From: Astropecten irregularis
Lineage: Eukaryota; Echinodermata; Asteroidea; Paxillosida; Astropectinidae
Direction of reading: 5' to 3'
NCBI GenBank assembly: GCA_963971285.1
Contig: OZ020244.1
Coordinates: forward strand, 21,886,001 to 21,950,000
DNA length: 64,000 bases
Of this stretch, positions 12,501-63,904 are shown piece by piece. The position numbers and the translations under genes were made by a program. A model generated the notes under the pieces. The model worked only from the letters and a program-made list of their open reading frames with translations. It did not search any database and had not been told where the DNA came from. Positions within the stretch are counted from its first letter, which is position 1, and every line of letters starts with the position of its first letter.

Positions 12501-15162
12501 TTCGATTGACTAGTACGGTAGGTCTAGTACGAAGCCTTTTCCATTCCCTATTATGAAAAAGGATTTCCGTACCAATTTACTATGGTCATCATATGGCGTT
12601 TGTTTCGTCTCTTTCTCCTTGTTATAAACTCGTTTCGAATTTATTGTTTCAACTTCCTAATGTTTGCTTTTCTTGCATGAGTATGTTTGTTGAAGACAGG
12701 GAAGCAGACATAAGAGGCCCCTAGTATGCTTTTTTAACATGTTAAAGAAATAATGGCAAAGGGGATTTCACACTGTTTCTTGACTTAATATTAATTCTTA
12801 GTCAATATACTGATATTGTTCAGTAGATTAGAAAGATAGGCCTAGTCCATTGTGATGGTCCATTGAAATGTAGCACAAAGCGAGATGGGAATATAAATGC
12901 TCATGGAAATTGTATACTGTATGTAGAAACGAGTTTAATTTGTCGTATATTTTGTCGTTGGTGCCCATTGTATTATGTTTTTGTTTTTCTTGGGCACATG
13001 TACAATGTGTAGTATTTGATAACTTGAATGTTAGATACAATGCTAACAATATATTTCAGGCCAATGGGGTACGCCCACAGTCACATTGTCAGCTGTACTG
13101 GGCATCATGGCTGGCGTGCTTGCCTCCATCGTGGAATCTGTCGGGGACTACTACGCATGTGCGAGAATGTCTGGTGCCCTACCTCCTCCCCAACATGCTA
13201 TCAACAGAGGTGTACTGATGGAGGGCATTGGGTGTTTGTTAGCTGGAGCCTGGGGGACTGGAAATGGAACTACGTCACATAGTGACCATATTGGAGTTAT
13301 TGGGCTCACCAGGGTAAATGTTTAAATGTTTATTATTGTATAGTAATTAATATAGGCTTATTATTGGGCACAATACGAAGTATTGACCTGCTTCGGAGAC
13401 ATTATGTCTGTAACGAGATTACCGTGTATGTGCAACTGTATCATAATACGGAACGACGGTTTATAATAACCGTGCATGAAATAGCTACGGAGGCACAGAT
13501 GCGACATCGGTCTTCACAAACATTTGCACATTTTGATGTACGACAGTCGCTCATCGGTATATTATACCCTAGACATATAAACAATGACTGATTATCTTAC
13601 ATCGCTAATAATTATATGTAAATATTTGTGATTTTGCGATGTCCCTGCCGCGCCATCATAACTTTTCTGGCAGCCGGGTATGGACGACCGAAAGTCGATT
13701 TTTCTATTAATTCATAGCCTGACCAACGTAATCCCAATTATTTTGTCCATGCCAGACAATGCATGCTGCACACAATACAACAATAGACGATTGTTAGTGA
13801 TATGGGCATTATCTTCTCCATTTTAACAGGTTGGCAGTCGGACTGTTGTGCAGGCTGCTGGTGTCATGATGATAATAACTGGACTCATCGGAAAAATTAG
13901 TGCCTTGTTAATAACAATACCAGAGCCCATCGTTGGTGGCGTCCTCTGCATCACGTTCGGCGAGTTTTTCTCCTGTATTATTATGTTGAGGTCTTGGTAT
14001 CTCCCTTCTCTTATTTTACTCGACTTCGCAGAATGAATTTTATTTGATCTCAAATCAGTAGCGGTTTCTTGTCTCCTTGGACTGTTAATTCACCCAAGTT
14101 CTTGGTAATTGAGATTCAATATTGACTATCAACTTCGGTAATTCCATTGTCTTAGCACGCCTCTTCACTCCTAGTATAACACTGACTAGCCCTGTCTGTT
14201 TGATCCCATCACTAGGCATGGTGACAGCAGTAGGACTCTCTAATCTTCAATTTGTCAACCTCAACTCGTCCCGTAATCTCTTCGTCATGGGATTCTCAAC
14301 CCTGATGGGGATCGTGATACCGTACTACATGGAGGAAAACCCAGACCTTCTGCATACCGGTAAGGAACCAGGAAAAGGGAGGAAAAGGGAGGTAAATCCT
14401 GTACTTTGGGGGCTGGCACCGTCGCATCAATATGTTTGTATCCTTCTTTCTTTTGACATATTTTGTTTGCAGGGTCAGCCATACTGGACCAGATCTTGAC
14501 GGTTATGCTGACCACTGGTATGTTCATTGGTGGACTGCTAGCATTTGTCCTGGATAATACCATCGCAGGTCAGTAGAAAATCGAATTATGTCAACAGTCA
14601 ACTCTATTTGCTTCTAGTCAACGTTTAGAATTACTTTTCGTGAATCAAAGATTGCTTTCTCATCAATTTGTAAGCATGTTCGAAACATTATTTTCTCACT
14701 TGTTTCAAAATTATTCTTGAATACTTTTAACAAAACATTTGGTCATTTGAAGTGTTTTTTTCTGGGTGCTAAATTACTTCAAACTCGATGTCCAAACTGA
14801 CAGGAACTGACGAGGAGCGTGGACTCCTCGTATGGCGCCAGCATGACACTCTTGATGAAGAGGATAAAGACCGAGAAATAGACGACGAGGCAGAAGAAGG
14901 AATGAACGGCCCACACGATCAGGAAAATCAAGAGAACATGAAGTACAAGTTTGAAGTACTTGATTCCAATAGCCATGACCAGCGGGACGGTAAGGAGAGG
15001 GTTGACGGGACCAAGGTACCTTCTCTCCAGTCTTATGACCTGCCTTGGGTAACACCATTCATACGTCGTAGGGCTCGTTGGTGTAGGTACATACCCTTCA
15101 GTCCAACATTTGATGGATTCAAATTCACATGGATGAAGAAGACTTGCAAGAAGAATTCATAA
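9376..15162 (+). CDS. SLC23-family nucleobase/ascorbate transporter, right copy (first exon missing; 5' frame damaged)
   Basis: Eleven plus-strand exons: 9376-9532, 10305-10396, 10956-11017, 11148-11329, 11525-11645, 12272-12428, 13060-13313, 13830-13959, 14216-14359, 14473-14568, 14804-15162. From 10956 on, every exon joins in frame and matches SLC23A1/2 landmarks: [75 protein letters not shown] and LDNTIAG, then a charged cytosolic tail ending [10 protein letters not shown]. The three 3' exon boundaries are standard except the donor at 13960 (GC). The first visible exon is 157 nt against 158 in the left copy. The second has a 1-nt loss and a later 1-nt gain that place TGA in frame. The first coding exon is not seen and may lie in the 200-N gap at 8908-9107. 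Without these breaks the protein would be about 650 residues, as in SLC23A2. It is either a recently damaged gene or an assembly error. Confidence 0.8.
9564..9791. mobile_element. hAT-like MITE with TIR CAGTGGCGTC and an 8-bp TSD
   Basis: The 228-bp element begins CAGTGGCGTCGCCA and ends TGGTGACGCCACTG. It is flanked by perfect 8-bp duplications GTCACGAC (9556-9563 and 9792-9799). The interior is mostly poly-C and poly-G. It sits 31 bp after the first visible exon of the right SLC23 copy. An 8-bp TSD with CA..TG ends fits hAT-type transposition. Confidence 0.85.
10305..10396 (+). pseudogene. SLC23 right copy, TM3 exon with compensating indels and an internal stop
   Basis: It has the same length (92 nt) as left-copy exon 1164-1255. 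Aligned, it lacks one base (GCTTTATGG versus GCTTTTGTGG) and gains one later (CATGTCCC versus CATGCCC). The intervening stretch of roughly 45 nt is out of frame and contains TGA; the frame is restored for the last few codons (PPAPT). Confidence 0.7.
13284..13313 (+). other. NAT signature motif region with substituted key positions
   Basis: The encoded string is [10 protein letters not shown], ending exactly at an exon boundary. The family signature is [QEP]-N-x-G-x4-T-[RKG]; human SLC23A1 has PNIGVLGITK. Here the first two positions are Asp-His, while Gly, Thr and the terminal basic residue are kept. Confidence 0.75.
13960..14215 (+). other. GC-AG intron in the right SLC23 gene
   Basis: The reading frame [11 protein letters not shown] is restored only if the donor is TTCG|GCGAGT and the acceptor ACTAG|GCATGG. 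No GT donor near 13960 preserves both the frame and the family sequence. Confidence 0.7.
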
Positions 15163-20408: not shown

Positions 20409-20531
20409 CTAGGACGTGAGATCGGCGTGGCAAGTGTCACAAACCCGGACGGGTTTCTTAGAAGATGCGATGGTGGCTGACTTGGATGAGCACTCATTAC
20501 AGAAGATGTTACCACATTGGCGACAGTGATG
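20409..20531 (-). CDS. EEA1: EEA1 last exon: second half of FYVE domain
   Basis: Begins [17 protein letters not shown], completing the R(R/K)HHCR PI3P-binding motif across the splice junction, and ends [16 protein letters not shown] with TAG. All remaining zinc-ligand cysteines and the RVC motif are present, so PI3P binding should be retained. It closes almost exactly as human EEA1 does. Confidence 0.95.
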
Positions 20532-23500
20532 CTGTACAAAGACACACAAAAACAAAAAAGTCAATACAAGTAATAAATTGCTGCAAAATGCAAAAAAAAA
20601 AAAAAAAACCACCCCACAGTACAGGGACAGTAAAAGGATGCAATCCTGTGTGCTGTAGAAGAGAAACACAATTTTGTTATTGAGTAGATGTGGTCAACTG
20701 GCTGGCAATGAATTTGCCCGAGTGGGACAAACAATTGAACAGTGACGAGAACCAATTGAACGTATGTTAATTATACACAATTATTTGCCAGTCGTTTGGC
20801 ACCGGAAGAGAAGATAGGCTGCACATAATCCACAGCTCGTGTGTCTGACATAGCAACTAATCAACATGACTTTCCTTTCCCGAATGAAACCTGAGAAAAT
20901 TCAAGAAATTATTTTGATAGCGCTTACAAATCGAAATACTACTGGCTATGGCCCTTTTCCAAACCTCGGCTCCGGCTCAGGCTCCGGCGCTGTCATCCTT
21001 ATGCTGAAAATATAGGTTGTGGCTTTTCATTGAAGCTGAAGCTCTGTTTTCTTTTTCAAACCAGAGAATCTACTTCCAAGCCACAGCCAAAAGATTCTAT
21101 TTCCATACCAATTATTTTAAAATGCTTTCACGAAATGGAGCAGGAGACGGAGCCTGAGCCAGAGCCGAGGTTTGGAAAAGGGCCTAGACCTGCTGGCTTT
21201 CTGCTAGTGCAGCTAGTGGAACGCCACTATAACGAACACCGCTATACCGAACATTTGGCTATACTGAATATCATCCTTGGTTCCCAACTTTTGTGTTCAA
21301 TAGCTATGGTTCTTTAAATCACTATAATGAACGACCACTATAACAAACACTGCTATACCAAACATCATCCTTGACTCCCAATTTATGTATACAATACATA
21401 CTGAATATGGTTCTTGAAATCACTATAAGCGACAATATCTGTGCATCACGCCATGATCGTTAGAGCGCCGTTCCACTGTAATGCTAAATTATGTATTAAT
21501 TTAATTCATTCCCTCAGTTTGTGTTCTTCTTGGGCACGGGGTAGGGGGAGGAAACCTTGTCCAACATACCCTTCTGACTGTGACTGAGAATGCCTTGTCG
21601 CATCCCATGCAGTTCTTGACCTCGGTGTCGTCAGCCCACTTACGGGCCATCTGCTTGGACTGTACTATCTGCAGGTTCTGGTTCTCACGTCCAAGTTCAT
21701 GCATGGCCGCCTGGGCATCGTCCAGCTTACGACGCAGTTCCAGCACTTTGGTCTGCAGCTTCTCAACATCGCCCTCGCTTGACAAACACCTGATATGCCA
21801 AAATTATCATCAACAGGAGAAGCATGTGGATGAGTTATACAACAAATAGCACCATTCACACATGGGACTTCGGTGTCAAAACCAGATTCAAAATATAATC
21901 GTTTCATGACAGTGATCTTTTTAATCTACCCTGTACAAATGGCCACATTCTTCGGTTGACATCAATCATCACAATGTATCCAAAAGCTTGTACTTGGTAG
22001 TTATATATCTCAATTGCTTTGTTTATCAGACTCCCAGCGTGTACGTACCTCTCCAAAAGTGTCCTCCTTTCATCCTGATTATTATGAATAGTTGCTTCAA
22101 GCACTGGTAATGACAGAAAGTAAACATCAAATCAATGGACTGGTAATATTTCTTCAAGTTACCGCACAATGAAAGATATTCTTGAATGTTATATGAAGTT
22201 TTGATGTTGTGTTTAGAGTTTCCATCAGTGAAAGATAACTGTCAATTGTCTTCTTCCTTGATTAACTTCATAGGGAGGATATTCTTTACTTAACAAATCT
22301 TGCTTTATTTGTTAGAACTATATTCATGAAATTACTTGACATGAGACAAAAAAAATATTGATCTCACACTGAACACAGAAAGAGAGTCTTTTTTGATGAT
22401 TTTTTCCTCAGCCCGCAAGCTCCCAAAAATTCAGATTCTCTACATTTTCTCAATGAGGGCAGCAGACAAATCTGTGTGATTTTGTGATGTAAGATATGAG
22501 AGCCTTGCGGGTTGAGCATGTGAAGAGAAAAATCATCCAAAAAAACTCTCTTTCTTTTTCAGTTTGAGATAAATATTTTTTTCTCAAGTAATTTAATAAA
22601 TATACATTTAGTTCTAACAAATAAAGTAAGGTTTGTTATTCCTATTTTATAAACAAACAAAAAACAGGGCAATTCTACTCTTGAGTCATCTTGTCTCTTC
22701 GTCAAACCCAGCCTAGCAATACCATCTACTACTCACCGGCAAGTTCTCCCCTGAGTTCATCCACCACCTTCTCCAGTTCTTGCTTGCGTGTATCAGCCTG
22801 AGCTAGATCACTGCGTAGAGTTGCTAGGTTCTCATTCAGTGCACTGAGTTGCATGTTGGATCGTTGTTCAATCTCTTCAATCTGGTGCTGTAGGTATGCC
22901 TTGGCTTGCTCCTCATTGGCCTAAAATAATAATAATAGTATTGGCATTTATATAGCATTCTTAAACACCAGAAGGGTATCACAACGCTTTACACTATTAT
23001 TATCCCTGGTCGTCGGGCCCATTTACATTCCTGAAACAATCTCAGCTCCCTGGGGAGTATACAGCCCCGGCTACAGTATTCAGTGCACAGAGGTTAATCA
23101 AACCACAAAGCCATCTCTACCATGGTACCCATTTACACCTGGGTGAAGAGGAGCAATATATGTGACAAAGCATCTTGCCCAAGGACGCAAGCACCATTGG
23201 CCCATGGCTGGATTCGAACCCACAATCTGTAGATTGACCACAGGATCTTGAGTTCGACAAGTCAAACCACTAGGCCCCAGCACCCCACCCTGGAATAAAT
23301 AATAAATCACCCCAAAATTACCACAGATGAAGTGAAGCCCACTGGCAATGTATGGCAGTGTGCTTTGGCTCCAAGTAACAACGACAAATCAGTCATTATT
23401 AGGGCAACAGATAATTCGGGCAATTCCGAAGAATGTGCCACCAAGAGTTTGCAATGGGTTGGCCAATTACAATTCACGGAAATTTACAACAAAATGTGGA

Positions 23501-41500: not shown

Positions 41501-44500
41501 TGTCAGGATGAGAAAAACACACAACGGAGATCTCATTGAGACTGATCAGCACAAAATGGACGGAAAGTTATAATCACCACTGAAATGAGCTGTCATCTAT
41601 TTAAAAAATTGAAGCCTGTGGTATATAACATGCTTGGTGTCTCTCTAGTCCTCTTGCTGTAATACATATAAAGACAATTATGATTATTTGATATGGATAT
41701 TGTCAAGATGTTGATTTCCACTCATTTTGTGCTGCCAGATCACAATTCAGCCGTCTAGGCACAGACTACAGTAAACACAAATAACAACAACAACAACAGG
41801 CCACAAACTGACAATCAATTATGTCTTGGGTTTTCATTTGTACTATTTAACTTCTGTGATTTAAGCAGGATTTGAAGCTTTGCATGGTAGAAGAATGTAA
41901 CGAAGTGAGCTTGTGGAGACACCATGTGAAAATCTGTTTTATGTAAGTGTGGTTCTGAAAAGAACCGGTGAGAGAGGTCTTGACGTTCCGGCCAGTGTAC
42001 TCTGGCTGTCCTCATCAGCAGAGTGAGTGAGTCAGGAGTCCTCGCAATCAGGAGTTCTGTGATTTACTTTCCGAATCAAAAATAAGGGCAGTGGGCTATC
42101 TGTCATGTCTGTGAAGACCTCAACACATTGCCAGACATGTGCCTACAACCACATGAAACCACATTTCCTCCAATTTGGGAAAGAAAATATCTATGACTAG
42201 TACAAAGTATGGTCTGAGATATATCAGTGCACAGGCTTTGTGTGTTGTGGGATGGTGTGTTATGGGATGGACAATGAGGGAATTAAACTAGAAACAGACT
42301 GATCACAGGTTAAATGTGATACTTACATGTAGTATACTTGTGCTTACAATATTTCTATTCTGATTAATCTAACCATCAAATAACCACAAGGGAAACTGAC
42401 TTATTTTAAGTCATTGAACATTGAACAAAGAAAAAGTGACTGGAGTGGGATTCGAACCAGTAAACCCCAGAATACCGTACCGGTGCTCTTATCAACTGAG
42501 CTATCCAGCCCTATGTTGGTGGTGTCTCTAATAGTCAACTATCTTTGTTCGTTTGGCAGTCAGAAGCCATTGAACCACGCACATACCGCTATATCTCAAG
42601 GATCATTTAAGATACGCGCAACATTAGCAATACTGCAACCTGAGAAACGGTTAAAGTATAAAGTGACATAAAACTATCTTCACTAACAGAAATCACACGA
42701 ACAAAGACTACAACCAGGCAAACAATAAAACTAGCATCGGACTCTCCTCCAAATTAGTTTTAAAAAATTGATGTATCGGTTAGTAAATGTCAAGACCGTG
42801 ATGCAAATTTGTGATCATACATGTATGTGAAATGTGTTTCATTTAAAACCAGGTTTTATATCAAATTTATCTAATAACTTATCAATTTAACTATGAACAC
42901 AAAGTCACAAACTATAGCCCGAAATTGGATTCAAAGTGGAAATTATGTCCAATAATGTCTTGCTTTTGCAGAAAATCAACTGCTACAATTTACTTACGAA
43001 GTTAGTGAATTCAGTGCTTCAATGAAAACAATAAAACTAAAAGAACCAAAAGCACAAGGATTTGAAATTAAACACGAAACCCAGACTGCACTTTGTTAAT
43101 TCTGGAACAATGAAAGTAATAATCAGACAATAAACCATGAAACATAATCATAAAGCAATAAGACACGAAAACAAGAAATTTCTGACTATTAAAACGACGA
43201 GACATATTTTGCATGCGTCTATATCAATGAACCGCAATCTGCTATCTGCATGACATTACACCACACAATGTTTGTAACTTAGCTTAATTTGTGGTCTGTT
43301 TAATGCACTAGATATCTACTTACATCAGCATCTACCTAAAGAACAGGGAAGGAAGTAAAGTCAACTGAAACTAAAGGGATTTCAAGAATGTTTTCCCCAC
43401 AGAAAAAAACAAACGAACAATATGATCAGACTGAAAGATAAAAGGAAAAGACTTTTCAAAGATTTCATTCACTGGAAGTAAGAAATTTGTGAACGATATT
43501 AGCTGTATATGATTCATATTTGAGTATTATGCCTGGGGTCAATTTCACCAAACTCATTGTAACTTCCTATAGGACTAAATGCACTGCAGCCCTACATAGG
43601 ATACGATGGGTTATCCTTCGTAACTCCAAGGTGCACTGATTTCAGTCACAGATCAGACATGCGTATTGTATTCAAAATGTGAATTCACCCAATTAATATA
43701 CACTGTTGCTGTATCACATGATTTCAGAATTGACCTATTGCAAGTCACAACATGGATCCGGAGTTCCTTCCTTCATGGTCACAAGAAGGCCAATGCATCA
43801 ACATTATTCACAATGGGTGTAAATGGCATAAAGGCCACAAGAATTATCCCACTGAGTGATGAAGGTACAATGTGCAAGAGCTTGCCTCTCAATGTGATGT
43901 GCAGTGCATTCAAGTCGGTATACAAGCAATTATTCATATCAATTGTGAAATAGGTTGAGGCCAGACCCACACTAACACCGTAACAGCTACTGCTAGGATT
44001 GATATGTCAGGGGAAAGATCCTGCCAGGATTGAAACGTCAGGCCCTCCAGTCTCAAAGGCTCTGAGAAAGATCCAGCTAGGATCGAAATGTCAGGAGAAA
44101 GATCCTGCTAGAATTGAAACGTCAGGACTCAGAGAAAGATCCTGCTAGGATTGAAACGTCAGGAGAAAAATCCTGCTAGAATTGAAACGTTAAGCCCTCC
44201 AGTCTCAAAGGCTCTGAGAAAGATCCAGCTAGGATCGAAATGTCAGGAGAAAGATCCTGCTAGAATTGAAACATCAGGACTCAGAGAAAGATCCTGCTAG
44301 GATTGAAACGTCAGGAGAAAAATCCTGCTAGAATTGAAACGTTAAGCCCTCCAGTCTCAAAGGCTCTGAGAAAGATCCAGCTAGGATTGAAATGTCAGGT
44401 GAAAGATCCTGCTAGGATTGAAATGTAAGGAGAAGATCCTGCTAGGATTGAAACATCAGGAGAAAGATCCCGCTAGGATTGAAACGTCAGGAGAAAGATC

Positions 44501-47500
44501 CTGCTAGGATTGAAACGTCAGGAGAAAGATCCTGCTAGCATTGAAACATCAGGCCCTCGAGTTTCTACAAGTGAGTACACTGAAATCCTGATTGCAAGGA
44601 ATCTGACATTATTAAACCCACCTGAGTCTGTTGCATGGCTTCCTTCAAGCTGTTATGAAGGGCCTTCTCCTCGTCCAGACTAGACTTCAACTGCACCATC
44701 TCTGTCGACTGCAAGACAAGAGTCAAACCATGATTACATGTATGACATTGAATGAATATCAAAATTACAATACTAAAACTGCTACTTAAAAAAGGTAACC
44801 TGAGCCAGTTTTATCCCTCAGCACAAAAATAGTTGCTAGGTGTGGAAGACAAAACCCACAAATTGAAGCAAGGCTTATTTTTGCCAATTTGGGCCAATTT
44901 CACCACGCTGCTTAAGCTTCCTAAAAATTAGGTTCACCAACAAGTGTCCTTTATTGCTAATTCTGACTTTATATCAGCTATAGTCTTCTCAAGCACTCAA
45001 CATGGAGTTTTAGCCAGCAAGGTAATTTTATTTAGCAAGGTTTTTTTGTACTCAGTTGAGCAAATAAATTGGTGTGCTTATTAGCAACTCTAAGACCTGG
45101 ACTCCTGGTTCTGAACTCAGGCACGAATATTCAACTTTGCCTCGCAGGTAATGGAATGAGACTGGGGCCTTGATGGTGCCACTCATCCTCAGATGCTATA
45201 ATTCCAGGGGTCGATTTCACGAAGCTCTATGATCAATCGTAACTGGAGTTACGAAGGATTAACCCATCGTAGGGGGCCTATCCTACGTAGAGCTGCAATG
45301 TATCAAAAGTCTTACGCCGATTGATTGTGAGTTACAAAGAGTTTTATGAAACAGACCCCTGACGCTGTATGATTAATTACCAGTGATGCAGCTTTCTTCT
45401 CCATGGCATCTTTCACAGTCTTGTAAGCGTTGCCGTGCTCAATGGATTCTGCCAACTGCTGGCGTAACAAAACCACTTCTGAGGACACTACAAAGAAAAA
45501 GATACAAGATGGTCTGAGTCAGAGTCAGAGCCATCCGAGTCAAAGCCATCTGAGTCAGAGCCTACCAATTTAGAACCACCAAAGGCAGAGCCACCTGAGT
45601 CAGAGTCATCTGAGTCAGAGCCATCTGAGTCAGAGCCATCCAAGTCAGAGCCATCCAAGTCAGAGCCACCCAAGTCAGAGCCACCCAAGTCAAAGCCACC
45701 CAAGTCAGAGCCACCCAAGTCAGAGCCACCCAAGTCAGAGCCACCCAAGTCAGAGCCACCCAAGTCAGAACCATCCGAGTCAGAGCCACCCAAGTCAGAG
45801 CCACCCAAGTCAGAGCCACCAAAGTCAGAGCCACCCGAGTCAGAGCAATCCGAGTCAGAGCAATCCGAGTCAGAGCAACCCGAGTCAGAGCCACCCAAGT
45901 CAGAGCCACCCGAGTCAGAGCCACCCGAGTCAGAGCAACCCGAGTCAGAGCCAGCCAAGTCAGAGCAACCCAAGTCAGAGCCACCAAAGTCAGAGCCACC
46001 CGAGTCAGAGCAATCCGAGTCAGAGCAATCCGAGTCAGAGCAATCCGAGTCAGAGCAACCCGAGTCAGAGCAACCCAAGTCAGAGCCACCCAAGTCAGAG
46101 CCACCCAAGTCAGAGCCACCCAAGTCAGAGCCACCCAAGTCAGAACCATCCGAGTCAGAGCCACCCAAGTCAGAGCCACCCAAGTCAGAGCCACCAAAGT
46201 CAGAGCCACCCGAGTCAGAGCAATCCGAGTCAGAGCAATCCGAGTCAGAGCAACCCGAGTCAGAGCCACCCAAGTCAGAGCCACCCGAGTCAGAGCCACC
46301 CGAGTCAGAGCAACCCGAGTCAGAGCCAGCCAAGTCAGAGCAACCCAAGTCAGAGCCACCAAAGTCAGAGCCACCCGAGTCAGAGCAATCCGAGTCAGAG
46401 CAATCCGAGTCAGAGCAATCCGAGTCAGAGCAACCCGAGTCAGAGCAACCCAAGTCAGAGCCACCCGAGTCAGAGCCACCCGAGTCAGAGCCACCCGAGT
46501 CAGAGCCATCCGAGTCAGAGCCATCCGAGTCAGAGCCACCCGAGTCAGAGCCATCCAAGTCAGAGCCACACGAGTCAGAGCTCCCCTTTGAAAATTTTAC
46601 AAACATCTGTGCACCCTCATTAGACATCTGAACCTAGGCTACGTCATTATAATCCTGCAGATGTGGTATGAGATGCTTACACAGAGATCTGTCTTCTTCA
46701 GCTCGTTTGAGGCTTGCATCCCCTTCACCAGCATCCGGCTGTTGAATCAACAAGACACAGGTATTATAAACACATCCAGGAATGGTATTACCATCAAACC
46801 GCAGTCTGAAGCTTTTGTCAGTTACACTGAAAGCAACGGGACTGGGTTTTTCAGGAGACCAAAACGTGGTAAGAGAATTGTTTACAATGTCAAATCAACA
46901 CGACTGTGAGTCTCCATTTCTACTGTGCTGGTGACAGATGGTTGCCTTCAGTAACCAGCACAACTCCCAAACGGGACTTCCCACCCCAAACGTTTTTTCT
47001 ATTGTACAATTACCTACCCAAACTATCCAATCTTATTTCGAAAATGGGTCTCAGTAATTATCAATCATTTATGTATTAGAGTCTATTTACATTTCATTAA
47101 ATCTGAATCATTGTAAGCAGAGGCGGAAAATTATAACACAAAGTTTCTAACGTTAATCATCAAATAACCGCAAGGGAAACTGACTAGATAAATTTTAAGT
47201 ACTTGAAAGTGAACAAAGAAAAAGTTGCTGAAGCAGGATTTGAACCTGGCAACCCTGAAATAACGTACAAATGAGCCATTCCAATCTTTAATCAGTGCCG
47301 GCTGGAAACTCCAAGTTCAAATCGCAGGTTCAAATCCCCCAAATAATGATCCAATGTTACAGGGAGCATGTGAGTTACTGCACGTACCTTGCCTTGCAGT
47401 TTGTCCACTTCTTTCTTGAGTTCATCTGAGTACCATTTCTCCTCCTGAAAATCATATCAATATTTCAGTCTGTTAAATGATATCAATTGTAGGCAATTTC

Positions 47501-54863: not shown

Positions 54864-55154
54864 TTACATGATGGTGCACATTCTGCTTTTCGTCATGGTG
54901 GTCCCGGCCGTGTGGCCTTTCTTGCTGGCCATAATAGCATTGTCCATCGCCTGTGCTGCGGCCACTACGGCCATTGCTGCGGCCTCTGGATTGCCACTCT
55001 GTGCGGCCTGTGCAGCACGGGCTGAGGCCATGGCAGCGGCCTGTTTGGCCTCAGTCTCCACCGGGGGACGCCCGCCGTCACGGGCATTGGACTGCTCCGT
55101 GATCATCTGAGCCACGGCACCGGCCAAGACGGCTGCTACGAATGACGCTGCTAT
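54864..55154 (-). CDS. Roco gene last exon: Ala-rich helix and CTIM C-terminus
   Basis: 96 codons after the acceptor ATTACAG. It starts IAASFVAAVLAGAVAQMI, which is hydrophobic, then a long Ala/Gln/Met-rich helical region, a basic stretch and the last residues KSRMCTIM before TAA. Cys-Thr-Ile-Met fits the CaaX consensus with Met at X, favouring farnesylation. The splice phase agrees with the preceding exon. Prenylation is inference from motif only. Confidence 0.75.
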   Translation of the reverse strand: MAASFVAAVLAGAVAQMITEQSNARDGGRPPVETEAKQAAAMASARAAQAAQSGNPEAAAMAVVAAAQAMDNAIMASKKGHTAGTTMTKSRMCTIM

Positions 55155-58100
55155 CTGTAATAATCAGTCCAACAGGAATATGCAATATCAAAAATGTTTC
55201 ATATGAGATTTGATATACTTTGTATGGTAAAAAGACTTAAAGACATAGCTTTACATGCATGGTATGTGAATACATCCAGTTAAGAGAAGAGGTTCCGTAT
55301 GAAGAGTTGACATTGAATTGTAGAACATCAAGTGACAAGATCTTTGCCTTGAAAATGCAGTCAGCTGGTAGGATTCATGGTTTATTTCCATGGCCAAGCT
55401 TCAATTACAATACTGTATTTACTTTTCTTCATTCAATAAAAATGCGTCTAAATTGAATTAAGCTATACTTGTATATTCACGGTCGCAATTACTTAATCAA
55501 TACCAGCATCAAAGTTGGGTCTTGAGCACTGGATATGTAAGGATAAGAAAAAGTTACTATCTATCAAGTTCATACTAGACGCAATATCGGTGTTAGAAAT
55601 GTTCGAGAAAAGAGCACCTGAAAACCCCTAAATTGCACCATCTGATTTTGATTGAAATCATCGACCAAATTGTTGTTTTCCTGAGAAAAACAAACGATTT
55701 GGATGGAAATGTCCACAGGAATTAATAGTTTTATGATATAGCATTTTGAAAACTAGTTTTACTTGAATGGATGCTTTCTTCCCTCGAAACCACATGACCA
55801 ATGATGTACCTTGAAGGAATGAGGAGGTGTTGTAAGATGCTGAGCATAACTGTCATATCTTACCTTCTTGATTTCCTTAATTTCGTCCTCCACCGACACC
55901 CTCCTCCACCCGTTGTCCAGTTTCCATTTAATCTCTGCCTTCTTGTTGGTAGTCTTAACCTGCGGTGAGGTGAACACCCTTGGACTGTCTACCCTGGGCG
56001 GTGAGGGTGAAGGTTTGGTCGTCGGTGATGATGATGATGATAGGGAGGACCTCGTCGGTGGTGACGGCGTGGGTCTGAGGCTGCTCGTGCTCTGGTAGTC
56101 CGTGTCCGAGGGCTGGTCCGAGTCGGGCTCGGTGATGCTGGGAGTCGAGTCGCTGAGCTGGATGTCCAGGTTGGCCAGCCAATGGAGCCACTGAGAAACT
56201 GTCAGCGTTGAATCCCCTTGAAATGTAATCAGATAATGCATTTGATGAGTTTAATTGACAGATGATTAGTGAATGTAAAGATTGGTAAAACCAACGGAAT
56301 TCGAACTCCAACTGAAACATCCATCTGAGGAAAGATGCTAATTGTACAGCTGTAATTCTTGTCTTTACATCTTCATTGCATTTTACATTCAAACAGCAAA
56401 AAACACGAGGTTAACGTAACCACTTTCACTTGAATTTAAGCTTTGATCGAACAACGATGTTCAGTTGGGTACTTATGATAACATTCCCCAATAAACTCGT
56501 TCAGCAATGCTCAAAGTATAAAACTCGCAGCGTTTTACTAAGACAACGAGAATCAGGCTGTTTAATGTATCCGCCAAAAATGGTTACATCGCTTAAAAGA
56601 GCTAGAAAATAGTCTTTTCAATTAGCCGCATGGTTTTCTAATCTCTGCTAAATCCTGATTTATCAGTGTTGGATTTTTGAAAGATAAAACAACTATAGGA
56701 CAAAACGTTGCCTTTTGAATACCTGTTTTCACACATGCTCCATGCAGGCTCAGTGTGCTTTAAGTGGCATCACACTTCGGTATTAATAAGAATCTCAAAT
56801 AATATCAAACTTCATCATTTTATGACAACTTGACGGCGACACACTGAAACCAGCCAGAACCTACCACACAGTGGCATCAAGCACTCCGCATCCACCTCAC
56901 AGGTTTGATCTGGCACGTCGATCTTCATCACTGTGTCACTACTAGAAGCCGCTGATGTGAGATCCAAGAGGCTTATCTCCAATTCGTCAACCGGCGACTC
57001 GCTGGTGTAGTAGGCTGAGCTTGGTATTATAGATGTCTGCTCGGCAAAAGGTTCCATTGGATAAAAATGAAGTTTCAATTGGTAAACACCACTAATATTT
57101 CCATCGAATAACACCAATTTTACAAATAAGACATAGAAAATAATGATTGAAAGATGTGCTAGGTGCGCCAAAGCAATAAAGGCAAGGAAGTATGTGGCCG
57201 TATAACATGTGATATACTCTTGGTGATTTCTCAGGCCTTCCATATGCCAAGTTGAAGAGTTGCATTATAAAATATTATTGAACACGCGTTTTCATTTCGC
57301 CAAAACCTGTACAGGGGTGCATATAAACTGCATGAACAGAAAATCACATTGTATTAGATACCAAAGTAGGATTTGGAAGTACCTGGTAATAAACTCCCTG
57401 CCACGATGTCAAGAACTTGTCGGCTACGACCAGAAACCTAGCCAGGACCACCCAGAGTACCTCGGTGGCCCTACGCATACCCTCCTCATCAACCGTCACG
57501 CGCACGTACAGGTCTACTTTGTCTACCTGGCCGCTCTCTGGCTGCTTAATGTTCACGGATACCTAGGGACAAAGAAGGGAGGGACATTGTCGTCAACATG
57601 ATGGAGTCACTCAGGTAACATTTTCGTCATGATCCCACACAGCTGCGTACCTATTAAAAACGGCACCAGAGGCAAGCGCTAAAATCGGGCTCCTAATTCT
57701 AAGTTCTGATGCCAATGAAAAAACAATTCAGACAATTTAACATTTAAATCTTTCATTGTTTGTTCCTTGGATTAATTTTTTTTTTTAAATACGCCACTGA
57801 TCCAACAAAGTTGAGGACGAGGTTTGAAGATGTCCTCGTTAAGTGAACTCACACCAGTATTCCTCTACTATGACTTCGCACTTATCACGTGCGCATCTTC
57901 AAGTTCAATGAGCAACCTTGACTTCATTCTCATTCGAAGAATTAACAGCAGGTGTGCACCATCAAGTATAACGGGATAATGGATGGAGTTCTCTGATGTA
58001 ACCAAGACGCCATCACAAATCGTAAAACATAAGGTGTAATTACCCATTAACCAACCGTTACAGTAAAGACTAGATTTTGTGTGTTTGAAACCTGAAGATA

Positions 58101-61100
58101 GCAAAAGAGATATGTGCAGTGGAAATAATGTGTGAAGTGATCGATGTAGGTGATGAAAAATATTAGAATGTATTTAAATCAAACTGTGGGACAAAAATTA
58201 TGGGACACGGCTTAAGACTATTAATCGAATAACATTGGAGGTTATCATGGTCTCCTTTCTCTTCACAACAATATGGACATTCTTTTAGAAATGTTTTCCT
58301 ACCTGCCCCATTTTAAGTAGCAAACCGTACTTCCAATGATGCCTGTACAGGGCACCATGTGTATTTGTGCGGCACATGACGATTAGTCTCGGCACCAGCC
58401 CCAGGGGCGCACCGAGTGGAAACGTGTACCTCCAGCCAATCTGTGCGTCACCTTTGAAGGGCTTTGGCGTCCAGTTTAGAGTCTACATGGGTAGAACACG
58501 AATAGACCAATCACCACGTGGAATGTAAATTTAAATACAATTTCAATAATCGAGCCTAGAGCGGCCGAGATACAAGGTTGTAAAATGAAGGGATTCCAAA
58601 GTCGGAACCAGTATGACTAACTACGTTCACAATCACACACAAACTAATATTATATCGATGGCTTTATCGTTCGAGTTGAAGCTTACCGATGTGGGTAACC
58701 AACTAACAAAATGATTTGATGTAGCACCATGGTAAGTAGGATTTGAAGCTTTGCATGGTGAATAGATTGGAATTGAGTAAGATCTAGACTATATGCTGTG
58801 CTCCTGCCGTGCCGAACTTAATTGCAGCAATAGCATGGCAGTAGTATGGCAGTTGCGCTAAACGCCGAGCTGAATTGAAATTGTCGCGCCACTGCCGTTC
58901 CGAATACCGATAGCGCGGCAGACCCTGTTGAGCCAAAGAGCTTGCCGTGCTGAGCTCAAATTGCCGAGCCAAATTCACGCTATACGCCGTGCTATTGCCG
59001 TGAAACTTGAAAATGTATAATCATTTGAGTTCGACACGGCAGTAGCACGGTGTATAGCCTAGGCCTAAGAAATGCGGAGACACCATGTATAACACTCTTC
59101 TTGGAAGGTGAGAAGGACAGCGTTGAGATTGGAGTATTCTCGACATTTCGACCATGTGTGCTCTGGCCGTCCTCAGGAGAGAGAGTGCACCATGATGTTG
59201 TACCAAGTGTTTTATGAATTCATGGTGCTCTAAAGAGAACAATTCCGTGCAATAAGTTATGTTCGTCGTCGGAATCCCAATTCAGTATAGAATTCATTCT
59301 AAACATGACCCTCCGAGACGATTTGAAGAAAAACTCATCATCCTGTCTCTATTTAACAAGCATTACAACACACTAGGTATTATTGACAAGCCTCTAAACT
59401 TACTGGTCCCGTGTCAGGCGTTAATCCGAGCAGGGGTACTCGATGCTGAACCTTAGCCAGGAGACCCGGGTAGTTAGGTAACTCTAAACATTTCCTCTCA
59501 GAATCCCCGTGTGCATCAGCTGCTCTGTTCAGAAATCCCAACCTGGCCATCAGATCAATGACTAGTCTGGTTTGCTTCTCGTTCATGTTGAAATCCTATA
59601 GAAAAATCGCACACGAGAGTGGTGATACCATACTGATATGAAACACAGAGGTGATTAAAGGTACAGTACAGGATTGGTAACATACCCAAACAGAAAATAA
59701 TGTTATTGAAAAGTGAACAAAGACAAATTGACTGGAGCAGGATTCGAACCGGCGACCTCCTGAATACCGTACTGGCGCTCTGCCACGTTGGTGGTGACTC
59801 CAATAGTCAATTATCTTTGTTCGTTTGGAACAAAGAAAATAATGTTACAGATTTACGTTTAACATTCAGGGTATGAAGATGGTACTGTATGGTCGAAATA
59901 TACCGTTAAAATATTCCGCCCGAAATGGTGTATCTATTCAGAAATGAGTAAAACAACGGCCGAAAACAGTTTTGATCTCGGGGTAAGATCAAAACCATTC
60001 TTTATGTTTTATAAGAAAAATTGAGTCGGGTCTTCGCTATTTTCTCGTGACGCATCAGATGTCCGATTGAGCTCAAATTTTCACAGGCTTATTATTTCAT
60101 GTACATGCTGGATTAGACAAAGTGTGAGTGCTGTTCTGTGACCTTTACCAATTATGTATTGCTCAGTGTCAGAGTCCAGTCCGGCTTCGTGCTTGATGAA
60201 CAGTTCATGTACATCGTGTGCTGATACCACCACATTGGCGTTCTTTCGCATCACCTTTAAGACTTAAGTGGATTTCGGAATTTATATAGTCGGTTTATAC
60301 CTGCCAAAGAAGCGGGAAAAGACATTCCCTGACCAGTCCCTCCGTGGCTACCTCCTCCAGAGCTTGCACTAGCACACCAGGGTTGGGCTTCCTGCTATTC
60401 CCGCCCTCCACCTTGGGCCAGAACCTCTTGGCCTCGAATCGAAAGGCCTTCTGTGTGTCACTCATGTGAACGAGGCACAGGGCTTTAGCAAACTCTGTGG
60501 GATCCATGCAGACTAGACTCACGTCCCCATCAGAAAGGCCGCTGTAGGATTGTAAAACACCCTGGGAAAAGGAGGAAAACAATAACAGCTGTTAAGCACA
60601 AAAGTAATGCTTAGCACAAAATTTCATGCTCAATAAAACAAACCACCATTAAATAGTCAATTTGATATTAATGGTCAGCAAACAACAGCCAAAGAACAAT
60701 CACAAGTGATACACAACACGTCCACGGTTAATTCTGTTTTGTTATTAAGACAGAAATTGCATGGTTTGCAAATGTTTGTGCAAAGCAGGGCCTTGAAATT
60801 GGCCCAAGACCTTTGTAACACCTTAGTGTAATGATTTATAAAGAAAATGACCCACTCGTTCTAAATATCTGCAGACGTTGATTAACTTATACCAATGAAA
60901 CAATGTCTTTTGAATGAGACTGAGTGAAGTTCACAAGAAGGCTATTAGACCAATAGACCAACGGATTCAAAGATAAATCCCACAAATTACATCAACACTT
61001 TTCCACGAGTGGAGCTGGGGGCTCAGGAGTTTCGTTTGGTAGTGGAAATGGTATAATAGCTGATATGGGAGGCGTTTACAATATGGTTCAATTTATGTAA

Positions 61101-63904
61101 TAATGATGCTTAGATGGGCGTCACCACAAAATCAGCGTGAATAAGTGAGGCTGAGTTCTCTGTATCAGACGGCCGAGAAAAGACGTTTTATTTGGCAAGC
61201 CAACATTTCCGTTTTACATCACTTGTTTGTTTGCGTGGGTTGGTAAACATATTTTTCTCTAAAATTTTCTCGGGCAGAATTTGAACCGTCTGCATTGGCA
61301 TTGAAACGATCAACCAATCAGAACACAAGAATGCAAGATACGTTCCCAAGGAGACTCACCGAAGTCTCCAAGAAGTTGAGTTCTCTCTGTTCGGTGTCGG
61401 AGTCAAGTCCGACTTCGTGCTTGATGAACAGTTCATGTACATCGTGTGCTGATACCACCACATTGGCGTCCTTTCGCATCGTGCCGATCTCATCATAAAC
61501 TTCGGCAGTGGATGGCCGGATGGGCATACTGTGCTGGACTGGGGCTCCTCTGCTGGCCTTTATGACTGCGTTGAGAATTTCCTTCCGTACTTCGTCGAGA
61601 CCCTACATGTAAATCAATCATAGACAATCTTGTGAGTGGCTTCATGGCTTCTGACTGCCAAACGAACAATTGACAATTAGGGACACCACCAACATAGGGC
61701 TGGATAGCTCAGTTGGTATAGCGCCGGTATATACGGTATTCCGGTGGTCGCTGGCTCGAATCCCACTCCAATCAATTTCACCAAACTCATCGTAACTTAC
61801 CATCAATCGTAGGACTTTTGATGCATTGAAGCCCAACGTGGGATAGTGGTTTCATGGCATCTGACTGCCAAACGAACAAAGATAACTTTTAGGGACACCC
61901 TCAACATAGGGATGGATAGGTCAGTTGGTACAGCGCTGGTACACGGTATTCCGGAGGTTGCTGGTTCGAATCCCACTCCAGTCAATTTTTCTTTGTTCAC
62001 TTTTCAATCTGATTGTGATTGGGATTAATAATACACTCATCAATCATTCATACCCTTGCCGTTCTACTGCTACATGTCACAATGGACGCAGGGGGCTTAG
62101 GGAAACCATCCAGTAAATCTTCCAAGCGGTTGATCCGATGTTGACATTTTGGCGTCCTTGGCTCAGGTAGATTTCTATACCAAGAGATCAAGTGAACACA
62201 AATCACTTTTTTATCTTGATTAACATCATTTACAATAATTATGCTTCAACTAGTTTGCAAATTTAGGTCATAAACGGTGGAATTTTTCCTTCCTGGAAAT
62301 TGCATATAGTCTGTCCCAACATGAGAGCTGGATGTACGATGTCCCCGTTTTTCCATGACAATACAACAGCTGTGATAAATACGACAGATGGAAAACAACT
62401 TCCCTCCTCTATGGTGTTCCAAAGACGACACATCGCGTCGCCGTCGCCGTCGCCCCTTCACGAAGCGACGCGATGTGTCGTCTTTGGAACACCATAGAAA
62501 CATACAGTTAAAATATTTCTGCCTGAAATGGTGTATTTATCCAGAAATTAGTCAAACAAAGACCAACAACAGTTTTGATCTCGGGATCAAAACCATTCTT
62601 GATGTTGTATAAGAAAAATTTAGTCGGGTTTTTGCTATTGTAACGACACTATTTTCTCGTGACTCAGATGTCCGATTGAGCAAATATTTTTACAGGTTTA
62701 TTATGTTATTTGCATGTTGGTTAAGGCAAAGTGTGGGATTTGTTATGTGACCTTTACCAATCATATATTATATACCTTTAAGCTATCTCGTTTGTACTGA
62801 TTCTCTTTTTGACTTCATGGATGTACGTATGGATATGAAAATCAATACCTGAGATTATGAAGTTCTTGCTGCACCTTCTGTATGCAGTGAGCGTGTCTGT
62901 TCCGTAAGATACCGAGAATATCTTGGCATTTGTCTGCGTTTCTGTCGACTTGACTGAGCCTGTCCACGTGAGTGCCGACTATCACCACTGCGCTACCAGG
63001 AAGCTACAAATAATTATGCAGGTGTGAACATAGATCGGGGATTAAGTTTAAAATGGGGATCAAGTTTGAAACGAAGGGGATTAAGTTCAAAACGAAGGGG
63101 ATTACAAAGAGGGTTACGTTTGAGACAAAGGGGGTTCAGTTTGAAACAAAGTGGGTTCAGTTTGAAACAAAGACGTTTCAGATTGAAACAAAGGGAGCCG
63201 TACAGTTTGAATAAATGATGGTTCAGTTTGAAACAAAGACGGTTCAGTTTGAAACAAAGACGGTTCAGTTTGAAACAAAGACGGTTCAGTTTGAAACAAA
63301 GACGGTTCAGTTTGAAACAAAGACGGTTCAGTTTGAAACAAAGAACGATACAAGTCGGGAAAGTCGCGGTGGTAATTTGTTTTCTAAAGGTTTGTGTTCT
63401 GAGGTTATAAGGTAGAACTGAACATTAATCATATTGAATCATTCATTCTCGGACTTCGTTTATAACAACAACTTCATTTTAATTTAGGTGTGTCTCACTT
63501 GGCCCAGATGTCTGCATAATATCAGGGGCCAACTTGAATTTCACGGCCCTGCTTAGCATACACAAATTGCTAGCCATGGAATTTCTGTCTTAGTAAAAAC
63601 GGGATAAACAACCAAATTTCGATGTGATGTCTTTTGTTCTTTGGCTTTTGTTCACTGACCATGAATATGAAATGGATTTTGTAATGGTGGTATGTTTTAT
63701 TGGGCAAGAAATATTTGTGGTAAGCAATTTGTTTGTGCTTAGCTGCTCCATGAAATTGTCCCTGGTTATATAGGCCTATACCTTTGCCCATATCAGGTCA
63801 ACAATCGTTGGCACCTCGTCACAGCTTTCTTGGCGGGTCATGTCGAATATGATCACGGGAAGAACACCCGGCGTCAGAAATATGTGATGAAACTTCTGCC
63901 AAAC
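54864..63904 (-). CDS. Roco-family (ROC-COR) GTPase with CaaX-like C-terminus (5' end beyond window)
   Basis: Twelve minus-strand exons, all in phase: 63782-63904, 62849-63003, 62054-62174, 61360-61602, 60301-60561, 59404-59595, 58303-58482, 58056-58091 (donor uncertain by 6 nt), 57383-57562, 56865-57036, 55864-56216, 54864-55154; 768 codons. The ROC domain part has FHHIFLTPGVLPVIIFDMT, then PGSAVVIVGTHVD, whose THxD is the G4 guanine-specificity motif as in LRRK2 and MFHAS1. COR follows: FLETSGVLQSY, then an all-helical part, and PLGLVPRLIV with HHWKYGLLL (COR-B). After COR come a beta-like region (VDLYVRVTVDEEG), a Ser/Thr/Pro-rich linker, a hydrophobic Ala-rich segment and the end SRMCTIM. 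Leucine-rich repeats and the G1-G3 motifs would lie upstream, outside the window. Roco proteins are dimeric GTPases acting in signalling; a precise orthologue is not claimed. Confidence 0.85.
55864..56216 (-). CDS. Roco gene linker exon, Ser/Pro-rich
   Basis: Encodes DSTLTVSQWLHWLANLDIQL, then an acidic and Ser/Thr/Pro-rich disordered stretch (RPTPSPPTRSSLSSSSSPTT), then a charged EDEIKEIKK helix. No known domain was recognised. Confidence 0.75.
58303..61602 (-). CDS. COR-domain exons
   Basis: Exons 61360-61602, 60301-60561, 59404-59595 and 58303-58482 encode the COR-A helices and the COR-B beginning. The final exon has the recognisable FPLGAPLGLVPRLIV ... YRHHWKYGLLL pattern seen in Roco COR-B. 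Exons have 81, 87, 64 and 60 codons, all phase 0-0. Confidence 0.8.
58787..59060. mobile_element. Fold-back MITE, CTATATGCTGTGCTCCTGCC
   Basis: Ends CTATATGCTGTGCTCCTGCCG and the inverse CGGCAGTAGCACGGTGTATAG, with many GCCGTGC/GCACGGC motifs inside. CTAG flanks on both sides may be target duplications. In a Roco intron. Confidence 0.7.
59705..59830 (-). mobile_element. tRNA-derived SINE
   Basis: AATTGACTGGAGCAGGATTC GAACCGGCGACC on the plus strand, that is, the antisense of the family head and B box. It is inserted inside a copy of the CAGGGTATAA-type repeat. In a Roco intron. Confidence 0.65.
60161..60252 (-). pseudogene. Partial duplicate of Roco exon 61360-61602
   Basis: About 92 bp closely matching 61391-61482 with few substitutions, open in the same frame (SAHDVHELFIKHEAGLDSDT). 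It lies in the intron 49 bp past the donor of exon 60301-60561. No good flanking splice sites were seen, so it is probably a non-functional exon fragment. Confidence 0.75.
60578..60808. mobile_element. Fold-back element of the CCAATTTCA family, variant
   Basis: CAGCTGTTAAGCACAAAAGT ... GGGCCTTGAAATTGGCCC, with CATGGTTTGC and TTTGTGCAAAGCAG. Related to 41145-41357 and 63522-63766. In a Roco intron. Confidence 0.55.
61635..61772 (+). mobile_element. tRNA-derived SINE
   Basis: GGGCTGGATAGCTCAGTTGG and GGCTCGAATCCC, followed directly by a CAATTTCACCAAACTC fold-back fragment (61773-61847). Its normal tail is replaced at that junction. Confidence 0.7.
61848..62010 (+). mobile_element. tRNA-derived SINE
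   Basis: GGATGGATAGGTCAGTTGGT and GGTTCGAATCCC, tail CAGTCAATTTTTCTTTGTTC. It is in tandem with the copy at 61635-61772 and ends 44 bp from Roco exon 62054-62174. Confidence 0.75.
62409..62497. repeat. Perfect 33-bp inverted repeat with a 23-nt loop
   Basis: 62409-62441 and 62465-62497 are exact inverse complements (CTATGGTGTTCCAAAGACGA...). The loop is CGTCGCCGTCGCC-rich. Transcript from either strand would form a 33-bp hairpin. In a Roco intron. Confidence 0.9.
62849..63904 (-). CDS. ROC (Ras-of-complex) exons with the G4 motif
   Basis: Exon 63782-63904 gives HHIFLTPGVLPVIIFDMT, equivalent to the strand after switch II. Exon 62849-63003 gives VVIVGTHVDR, with THVD in the NKxD position. 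The two join phase 0 through WAK|LPG. The donor after WAK is GCAAAG|GTATAG. Confidence 0.85.
63037..63345. repeat. 21-bp minisatellite TTTGAAACAAAGACGGTTCAG
   Basis: Degenerate units (GGGGATTAAGTTTGAAACGAAG-like) from about 63037, then near-perfect 21-bp units from about 63215 to 63345. Its short open frames (VQFETKT) are by-products. In the Roco intron following the first visible exon. Confidence 0.85.
63522..63766. mobile_element. Fold-back element of the CCAATTTCA family, variant
   Basis: GGGGCCAACTTGAATTTCACGG ... GCTCCATGAAATTGTCCC, with the TTCTTTGGCTTTTGTTCACTGACC core. It ends 16 bp before Roco exon 63782-63904. Confidence 0.6.

Follow-up and report, generated by a model that had tools for sequence, protein, structure and literature searches.

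We analysed a 64,000-nucleotide stretch of the Astropecten irregularis genome (contig C1, positions 21886001-21950000), called the window below, whose minus strand carries a gene for a predicted Roco-type GTPase ending in the CaaX-like motif CTIM. Coordinates given without a contig or locus name are on the scale of the window, and searches of the species' own genome covered 475,729,200 bases in 168 contigs. Eleven minus-strand exons, running from 63904 to 54864 and spliced at GT/AG borders throughout, give a single open frame of 756 codons and a TAA stop, which ends ...AIMASKKGHTAGTTMTKSRMCTIM (TKSRMCTIM-TAA). The window truncates the gene on its 5' side and the start lies beyond it. Two further in-phase exons were found upstream in the genome, and the full model that includes both has 866 residues (the 866-residue model). 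The exons and associated features are as follows.

66835-67087, minus strand: upstream exon carrying the P-loop GGRGSGKT; ATG at 67087
64505-64581, minus strand: upstream exon carrying DLAGQK, from which exon 1 continues
63782..63904, minus strand: exon 1, the first in the window; Roc after G3, beginning VWQKFHHIFLTPG...
62849..63003, minus strand: exon 2; G4 motif THVD
62054..62174, minus strand: exon 3; end of Roc, with the G5-like CSSR
61360..61602, minus strand: exon 4; junction of Roc and COR
60301..60561, minus strand: exon 5; expected place of COR-A, Pfam without a COR-A match
59404..59595, minus strand: exon 6; expected place of COR-A, Pfam without a COR-A match
58303..58482, minus strand: exon 7; COR-B (E 4.2e-5, 23.8 bits, cut-off 27)
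57383..57562, minus strand: exon 8; COR-B
56865..57036, minus strand: exon 9; end of COR-B, donor in phase 1
55864..56216, minus strand: exon 10; linker rich in Ser and Pro, followed by basic sequence up to KEIKK; donor AAG/GTAAGA
55381..55386, minus strand: AATAAA in intron 10, which with the intron-10 stop at 55759 permits a shorter, CaaX-less end
54864..55154, minus strand: exon 11; 96 residues that form the Ala-rich tail, and the stop
55098..55154, minus strand: hydrophobic segment IAASFVAAVLAGAVAQMIT, with the highest 19-residue mean hydropathy in the protein (1.96)
54882..54926, minus strand: basic, acid-free approach SKKGHTAGTTMTKSR, preceding CTIM
54867..54878, minus strand: CTIM, the CaaX-like C-terminus, with the sole Cys of the last 214 residues
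54456..54461, minus strand: AATAAA about 400 bases past the stop

The initial annotation had described twelve exons joined in frame to ...SRMCTIM-stop. The joining on the minus strand, with no stop inside, bears out the frame and its ending; 11 exons were found in the window, however, and the interval 54864-57562, said to contain the last three, contains four.

Splice sites were scored with generic position weights, not trained on this genome. The ten donors fall between the 89.5th and 99.7th percentiles of 3792 GT sites on this strand, that of exon 10 being the highest (99.7th), and the 11 acceptors between the 69.6th and 100th percentiles among 3772 AG sites. The junction of exons 9 and 10 is in phase 1 on both sides, and that of exons 10 and 11 is an exact phase 0 join. 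The exon chain exceeds what chance would give, and the frame of exon 11 is by itself weak. The exons presumably form one mRNA, as judged from the DNA. The 5' end of the model is less sure than the rest: the ATG at 67087 has a stop of its own frame ahead of it, at 67105, but earlier exons could be spliced on in frame through an acceptor at 67102.

The Roc domain and the COR region

The first 264 residues of the model match the Pfam Roc family over its whole profile (1-119 of 119) with an E-value of 1.4e-12 and 48.3 bits, where the cut-off is 27; in the whole 866-residue model the E-value is 1.1e-11. The motifs GGRGSGKT, DLAG and THVD lie at residues 43, 105 and 162, so that G1, G3 and G4 are present. 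The closest solved structure is that of the Parkinson's disease protein LRRK2 (E 1.8e-10, residues 36-178), and among the best 25 matches listed (E 1.8e-10 to 2.9e-7) 24 are LRRK2 and one is an unnamed kinase. The same structure search without the upstream exons reached only E 0.41 to LRRK2, so the Roc domain is unproven from the window by itself; once these exons are added, the Roc GTPase named in the initial annotation is strongly supported. As controls, the reversed window half of Roc (154 residues) gave no Roc or COR match and one unrelated family at E 0.073, and the reversed COR-B segment (243 residues) gave no Roc or COR match.

The region after Roc is less readily assigned. COR-B was found in the whole 866-residue model at E 2.1e-4 and 21.6 bits. 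Profile searches of the genome returned eight matches for COR-A, the window gene not among them, and one for COR-B, in another locus (L031); the COR part alone matched nothing among solved structures up to E 10. Further domains were sought as well. Nine Pfam families matched the 866-residue model up to E 1, with no leucine-rich repeat (LRR), kinase, WD40 or death domain among them, a result that holds for this model, to which exons further upstream may still belong, and NCBIfam gave just two matches, far below their cut-offs (E 1 and 0.16). Most Roco groups carry LRRs or other repeats at the N-terminus. Regular expressions for LRR and ankyrin repeats, a weak test, were run over 30 kb including about 26 kb upstream and gave 12 scattered single LRR matches, no tandem and no ankyrin. 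We class the predicted product as Roco-type, with a COR region that has diverged.

The C-terminal tail

Beyond the COR region the model continues through a linker in which 44 of 80 residues are Pro, Ser or Thr (residues 655-734; 545-624 of the window part). The order that follows this Ser/Pro linker is a basic stretch ending KEIKK, the hydrophobic segment IAASFVAAVLAGAVAQMIT, an Ala-rich part with a central SGNP, a second basic stretch and CTIM. The initial annotation had noted an Ala-rich, hydrophobic sequence near the C-terminus, and such a sequence is present: 29 of the 96 residues of exon 11 are Ala, and the segment of highest Kyte-Doolittle (KD) hydropathy in the protein lies in this exon. 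The first 18 residues of that segment have an Eisenberg hydrophobicity of 0.70 and a moment of 0.08. A stretch in COR-B also exceeds the KD threshold (1.64), so that this threshold is not specific to membranes.

When the tail alone was compared with solved structures, its Ala-rich stretch matched two designed helical proteins (E 0.015 and 0.093); since the matches are to designed helical proteins only, a helix is plausible here as a prediction from sequence. An assignment of the tail to DUF1275 (Pfam E 0.044, below cut-off) or to such a designed protein was rejected, the scores being put down to Ala-rich composition. Against phages the tail alone gave no match.

The CaaX Cys is residue 863, and no other Cys occurs beyond residue 652. 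The last 22 residues contain four K/R and no D/E. To place the ending in context, we counted matches to CaaX patterns among the stop-terminated frames of at least 30 residues in the window, CTIM itself included. The PROSITE-like pattern was matched by 13 of 1253 frames, a lax farnesyl-like pattern by five and a strict one (C-[not DENQ]-[LIVM]-[MSQAC]) by four; CTIM is the only one of these four preceded by 20 residues with four K/R and no D/E. Random 4-mers of this protein's composition matched the PROSITE-like pattern in 0.34% of cases and the strict pattern in 0.09%. On sequence grounds the CTIM signal is uncommon, yet not decisive without conservation.

The same four letters form the C-terminus of yeast Rho4, and K-Ras4B ends in CVIM (PMC11304957). 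In a Ydj1-based screen CTIM was de-enriched, which the authors relate to impaired activity of canonically modified Ydj1 (PMC11304957). For plant farnesyltransferase, a1 is a position of low selectivity, charge is not tolerated at a2, and Met can occupy X (PMC3017772); CTIM belonged to the 32 constructs of that study, and what we use here are the general preferences and not the value for CTIM itself. At the very C-terminus of the frame, CTIM-stop has residues permitted by these preferences at both a2 and X. The CaaX-like ending of the initial annotation is thus present, fits the published preferences and has a basic, acid-free and otherwise Cys-free approach, and its prenylation is a prediction from these features.

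Relatives and other Roco genes of the genome

The viral contigs, searched with degenerate patterns (542-residue part), yielded no relatives, and of 14 degenerate-pattern matches in prokaryote contigs none was confirmed by tblastn. A search of the genome with the Roc-COR part (562 residues, lacking both the upstream half of Roc and the tail) returned 11 matches, every one of them within this gene. Distant Rocos were not listed by this search, so its negative result extends only to close paralogues. No catalogue of Roco genes in echinoderms turned up in the literature.

One of the 11 matches is a copy of part of exon 4: a 93-base piece (61388-61480) is duplicated in intron 5 (60160-60252) with 94% identity, and it was matched as protein too. 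A likeness may be drawn to Ectocarpus, in which LRR exons are found in non-coding DNA as well (PMC4104024). The Rocos of that alga differ in having N-terminal LRRs, and C-terminal domains on them reportedly share homology with transmembrane proteins; the part of PMC4104024 available to us does not mention CaaX. A 21-base tandem repeat in 11 copies (63104-63344) lies in the intron that follows exon 1.

The eight COR-A matches elsewhere in the genome include five long open frames, located as follows; at the remaining loci L016-L018 no frame of at least 250 residues carries the motifs.

L012:4085-7213, minus strand: long-frame Roco
L013:2797-5904, plus strand: long-frame Roco
L014:2899-5394, plus strand: long-frame Roco
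L015:4142-7159, minus strand: long-frame Roco
L019:4469-7228, minus strand: long-frame Roco

In these five frames the P-loop (GEPRAGKT; GDKGVGKS in L019) lies about 420-450 residues before DFAG/DNAG, whereas the spacing from P-loop to DLAG in the window gene is 62 residues. Pfam Roc is split into two stretches in all five, and in every one of these genes the piece between the stretches contains five segments whose KD is 1.6 or more; by eye, the insert sits past a switch-I-like stretch and ahead of the G3 strand. Pairwise identities are 26-28% (L019 versus the rest), 57-58%, 88% and 99.8%, and because they drop to 26-28% among its carriers the insert must have lasted. It is possible that these are membrane-embedded, apparently multi-pass Rocos whose insert lies in the interswitch region, and they could possibly be more striking than the CaaX-tailed Roco. 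To our knowledge, no Roco with such a hydrophobic insert in Roc has been recognized. Two of them (L014:2899-5394 and L015:4142-7159) are 99.8% identical over 817 residues and then diverge, the frames being 832 and 1006 residues long; this is either a recent duplicate, one copy of which may be broken, or an artefact of assembly.

At L031 (C21:11850371-11850736) lies a DAPK-like Roco that has both COR-B and a death domain (E 1.9e-11). Its COR-B scores 28 bits in the genome search (cut-off 27) and 20.1 bits in a 277-residue piece that lacks the COR-B start, so the window gene is not alone in scoring weakly for COR-B. The two genes share this weakness and differ in that the DAPK-type Roco ends in a death domain; blastp of its 405-residue frame against the window gene showed no similarity (best E 1.5).

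Elsewhere in the window, a Pfam check of neighbouring frames assigned a family to four of ten frames and to none of a further nine. Two exons of a FYVE-domain gene, which we take to be EEA1-like, lie at 20415-21803 on the minus strand (E 8.5e-12 and 2.6e-4, the second below cut-off), and exons of the xanthine/uracil permease family at 13050-14496 on the plus strand (E 1.6e-21 and 4.7e-6, the second just below cut-off). Six low-scoring Rfam tRNA matches (30-36 bits; 36120, 26284, 25951, 35107, 42437 and 61698) were without an ARAGORN counterpart; a tRNA-like piece recurs inside a Roco intron, and these are perhaps tRNA-derived short interspersed nuclear elements. A histone 3' stem-loop (41927-41971, minus strand) scores 35 bits against a gathering threshold of 34, and no listed frame of at least 90 residues overlaps it. 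At 45522-46581 a 15-base unit is repeated about 70 times, with five frames open, one of them Pro/Glu/Ser-rich.

Interpretation of the CaaX-like ending

The reading that we favour, and to which we give an even chance as a whole, is that the product is a compact Roco-type GTPase bearing a Ras-like lipidated, membrane-anchoring tail. The gene structure in the DNA, the Roc domain and the tail sequence are observed; prenylation, membrane location and function are what we infer from the sequence; given the tail, prenylation seems somewhat more probable than its absence. The Cys of CTIM would be farnesylated (or geranylgeranylated), after which the last three residues would be removed and the new end methylated. 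Lipid and basic residues would together keep the protein on the membrane face, as in K-Ras4B or Rho4, and the hydrophobic, Ala-rich segment may contribute membrane or helix-helix contacts. The nucleotide state of Roc and the contacts of COR would be controlled at that membrane, and the covalent anchor would do the job proposed for prenylated Rabs in LRRK2.

Ras and Rho GTPases resemble the product in having the GTPase domain near the N-terminus and a CaaX end, and in K-Ras4B and Rho4 a basic region lies next to the CaaX; they are far smaller and are without a COR region, linker or Ala-rich segment. A CaaX end is also present in the innate-immune protein GBP1. LRRK2, the best solved relative of the gene, shares the Roc fold and the order of motifs, but it has repeat domains, a kinase and WD40, none of which Pfam finds here. 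Recruitment of LRRK2 by prenylated Rabs and hydrolysis coupled to dimerisation at the membrane have both been proposed (PMC6337361), whereas the present gene has a CaaX-like end of its own. OAS1 p46, another innate-immune protein, is likewise a non-Ras protein put on membranes by a CaaX tail, although its domains are unrelated; in OAS1 the CaaX end is confined to the p46 isoform, which it directs to membranes (PMC10854198). The CaaX proteins named in PMC6563779 are phosphatases. The Rocos of Aplysia are joined to TIR and other domains, with no CaaX in the portion of the article consulted (PMC9334734).

Several observations weigh against this reading. The COR-B segment, which covers profile positions 3-139 of 145, scores below the cut-off (E 4.2e-5, 23.8 bits against 27), and COR-A is absent from the Pfam matches up to E 10, although a region of suitable length exists after Roc; of the ROC-COR assignment in the initial annotation, Roc holds, COR-B is weak and COR-A was not detected. 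Conservation of the Cys is unsupported, the viral and prokaryote collections and the Roc-COR search of the genome having given no relative, and none of the five long-frame Rocos of this genome ends in CaaX. In Plasmodium, a CTIM protein predicted by PrePS was not observed in the prenylome (PMC5141570). The acceptor of exon 11 is mediocre (80.6th percentile, rank 14 of 94 between 55863 and 54000), and 96 stop-free codons at 62% GC occur in 11.5% of Markov copies, so that the frame of this exon is possibly due to chance.

The alternative that survives best is that the gene and exon 11 are real and CTIM arose by chance and carries no prenyl group, with the Ala-rich tail a helical hairpin or an oligomerisation segment. 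Farnesyl-like or PROSITE-like ends occur in about 0.1 to 1% of frames, this one was picked out among many features inspected, and the Plasmodium case lends the idea further weight; the match of the CaaX positions to the published preference (PMC3017772), the basic acid-free approach and the position of the Cys as the tail's only one argue the other way. We regard a chance ending as a serious, if rather doubtful, explanation.

It is unlikely that the main transcript skips exon 11, with intron 10 retained and the protein ending at 55759, or with exon 11 a separate gene or non-coding. Such a transcript would be served by the in-frame stop at 55759 and the AATAAA that follows at 55386, both in intron 10, and would agree with the mediocre acceptor and the frame statistics given above. 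The donor of exon 10, on the other hand, is the strongest of the gene and joins exon 11 in exact phase, and the acceptors of exons 2, 4 and 10 (69.6, 73.8 and 80.5 percentile) are equal to or below that of exon 11. Two higher-scoring acceptors, 55106 and 55007 (48 and 147 bases from 55154), share the frame of exon 11, so that the CTIM end is independent of the choice of acceptor. The GC content at third codon positions is 0.66 in exon 11, near that of exons 5, 8 and 10 (0.63, 0.70 and 0.72). Exon 11 very probably belongs to the gene.

That the anchor is instead the hydrophobic segment, as a single-pass or hairpin membrane helix with the Cys incidental, is quite improbable, though compatible with the other readings: the segment has the top hydropathy of the protein and KEIKK just before it, but it is short and rich in Ala, Gly, Ser and Gln, and the COR-B stretch passes the same unspecific threshold.

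Returning to the lipidated tail, the initial annotation had proposed an undescribed architecture. In the open literature on Roco together with prenylation, CaaX or farnesyl, no prenylated Roco is described in the available text of PMC6337361, PMC6563779 or PMC10854198; in the last of these, Roco is the name of an author. A Roco with a Ras-like tail would be new if the tail is confirmed, and would represent an unusual route for a Roco protein to membranes. More tentatively, and at somewhat less than even probability, there may be a class of Rocos that are constructed like an oversized Ras, with an N-terminal Roc, no LRR or kinase, a dimerising COR and a lipidated basic CaaX tail, and with COR-controlled GTP hydrolysis on the membrane without Rab recruitment. 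Such a class and the hydrophobic-insert Rocos would together imply that Rocos became fixed to membranes in this lineage by two or more independent means. For LRRK2, access to membranes and the link of membrane binding to GTP hydrolysis and dimerisation are presented as open questions (PMC6337361). If our reading is true, the protein would offer a simple test case, in which GTPase cycling and dimerisation could be followed as one Cys toggles membrane placement.

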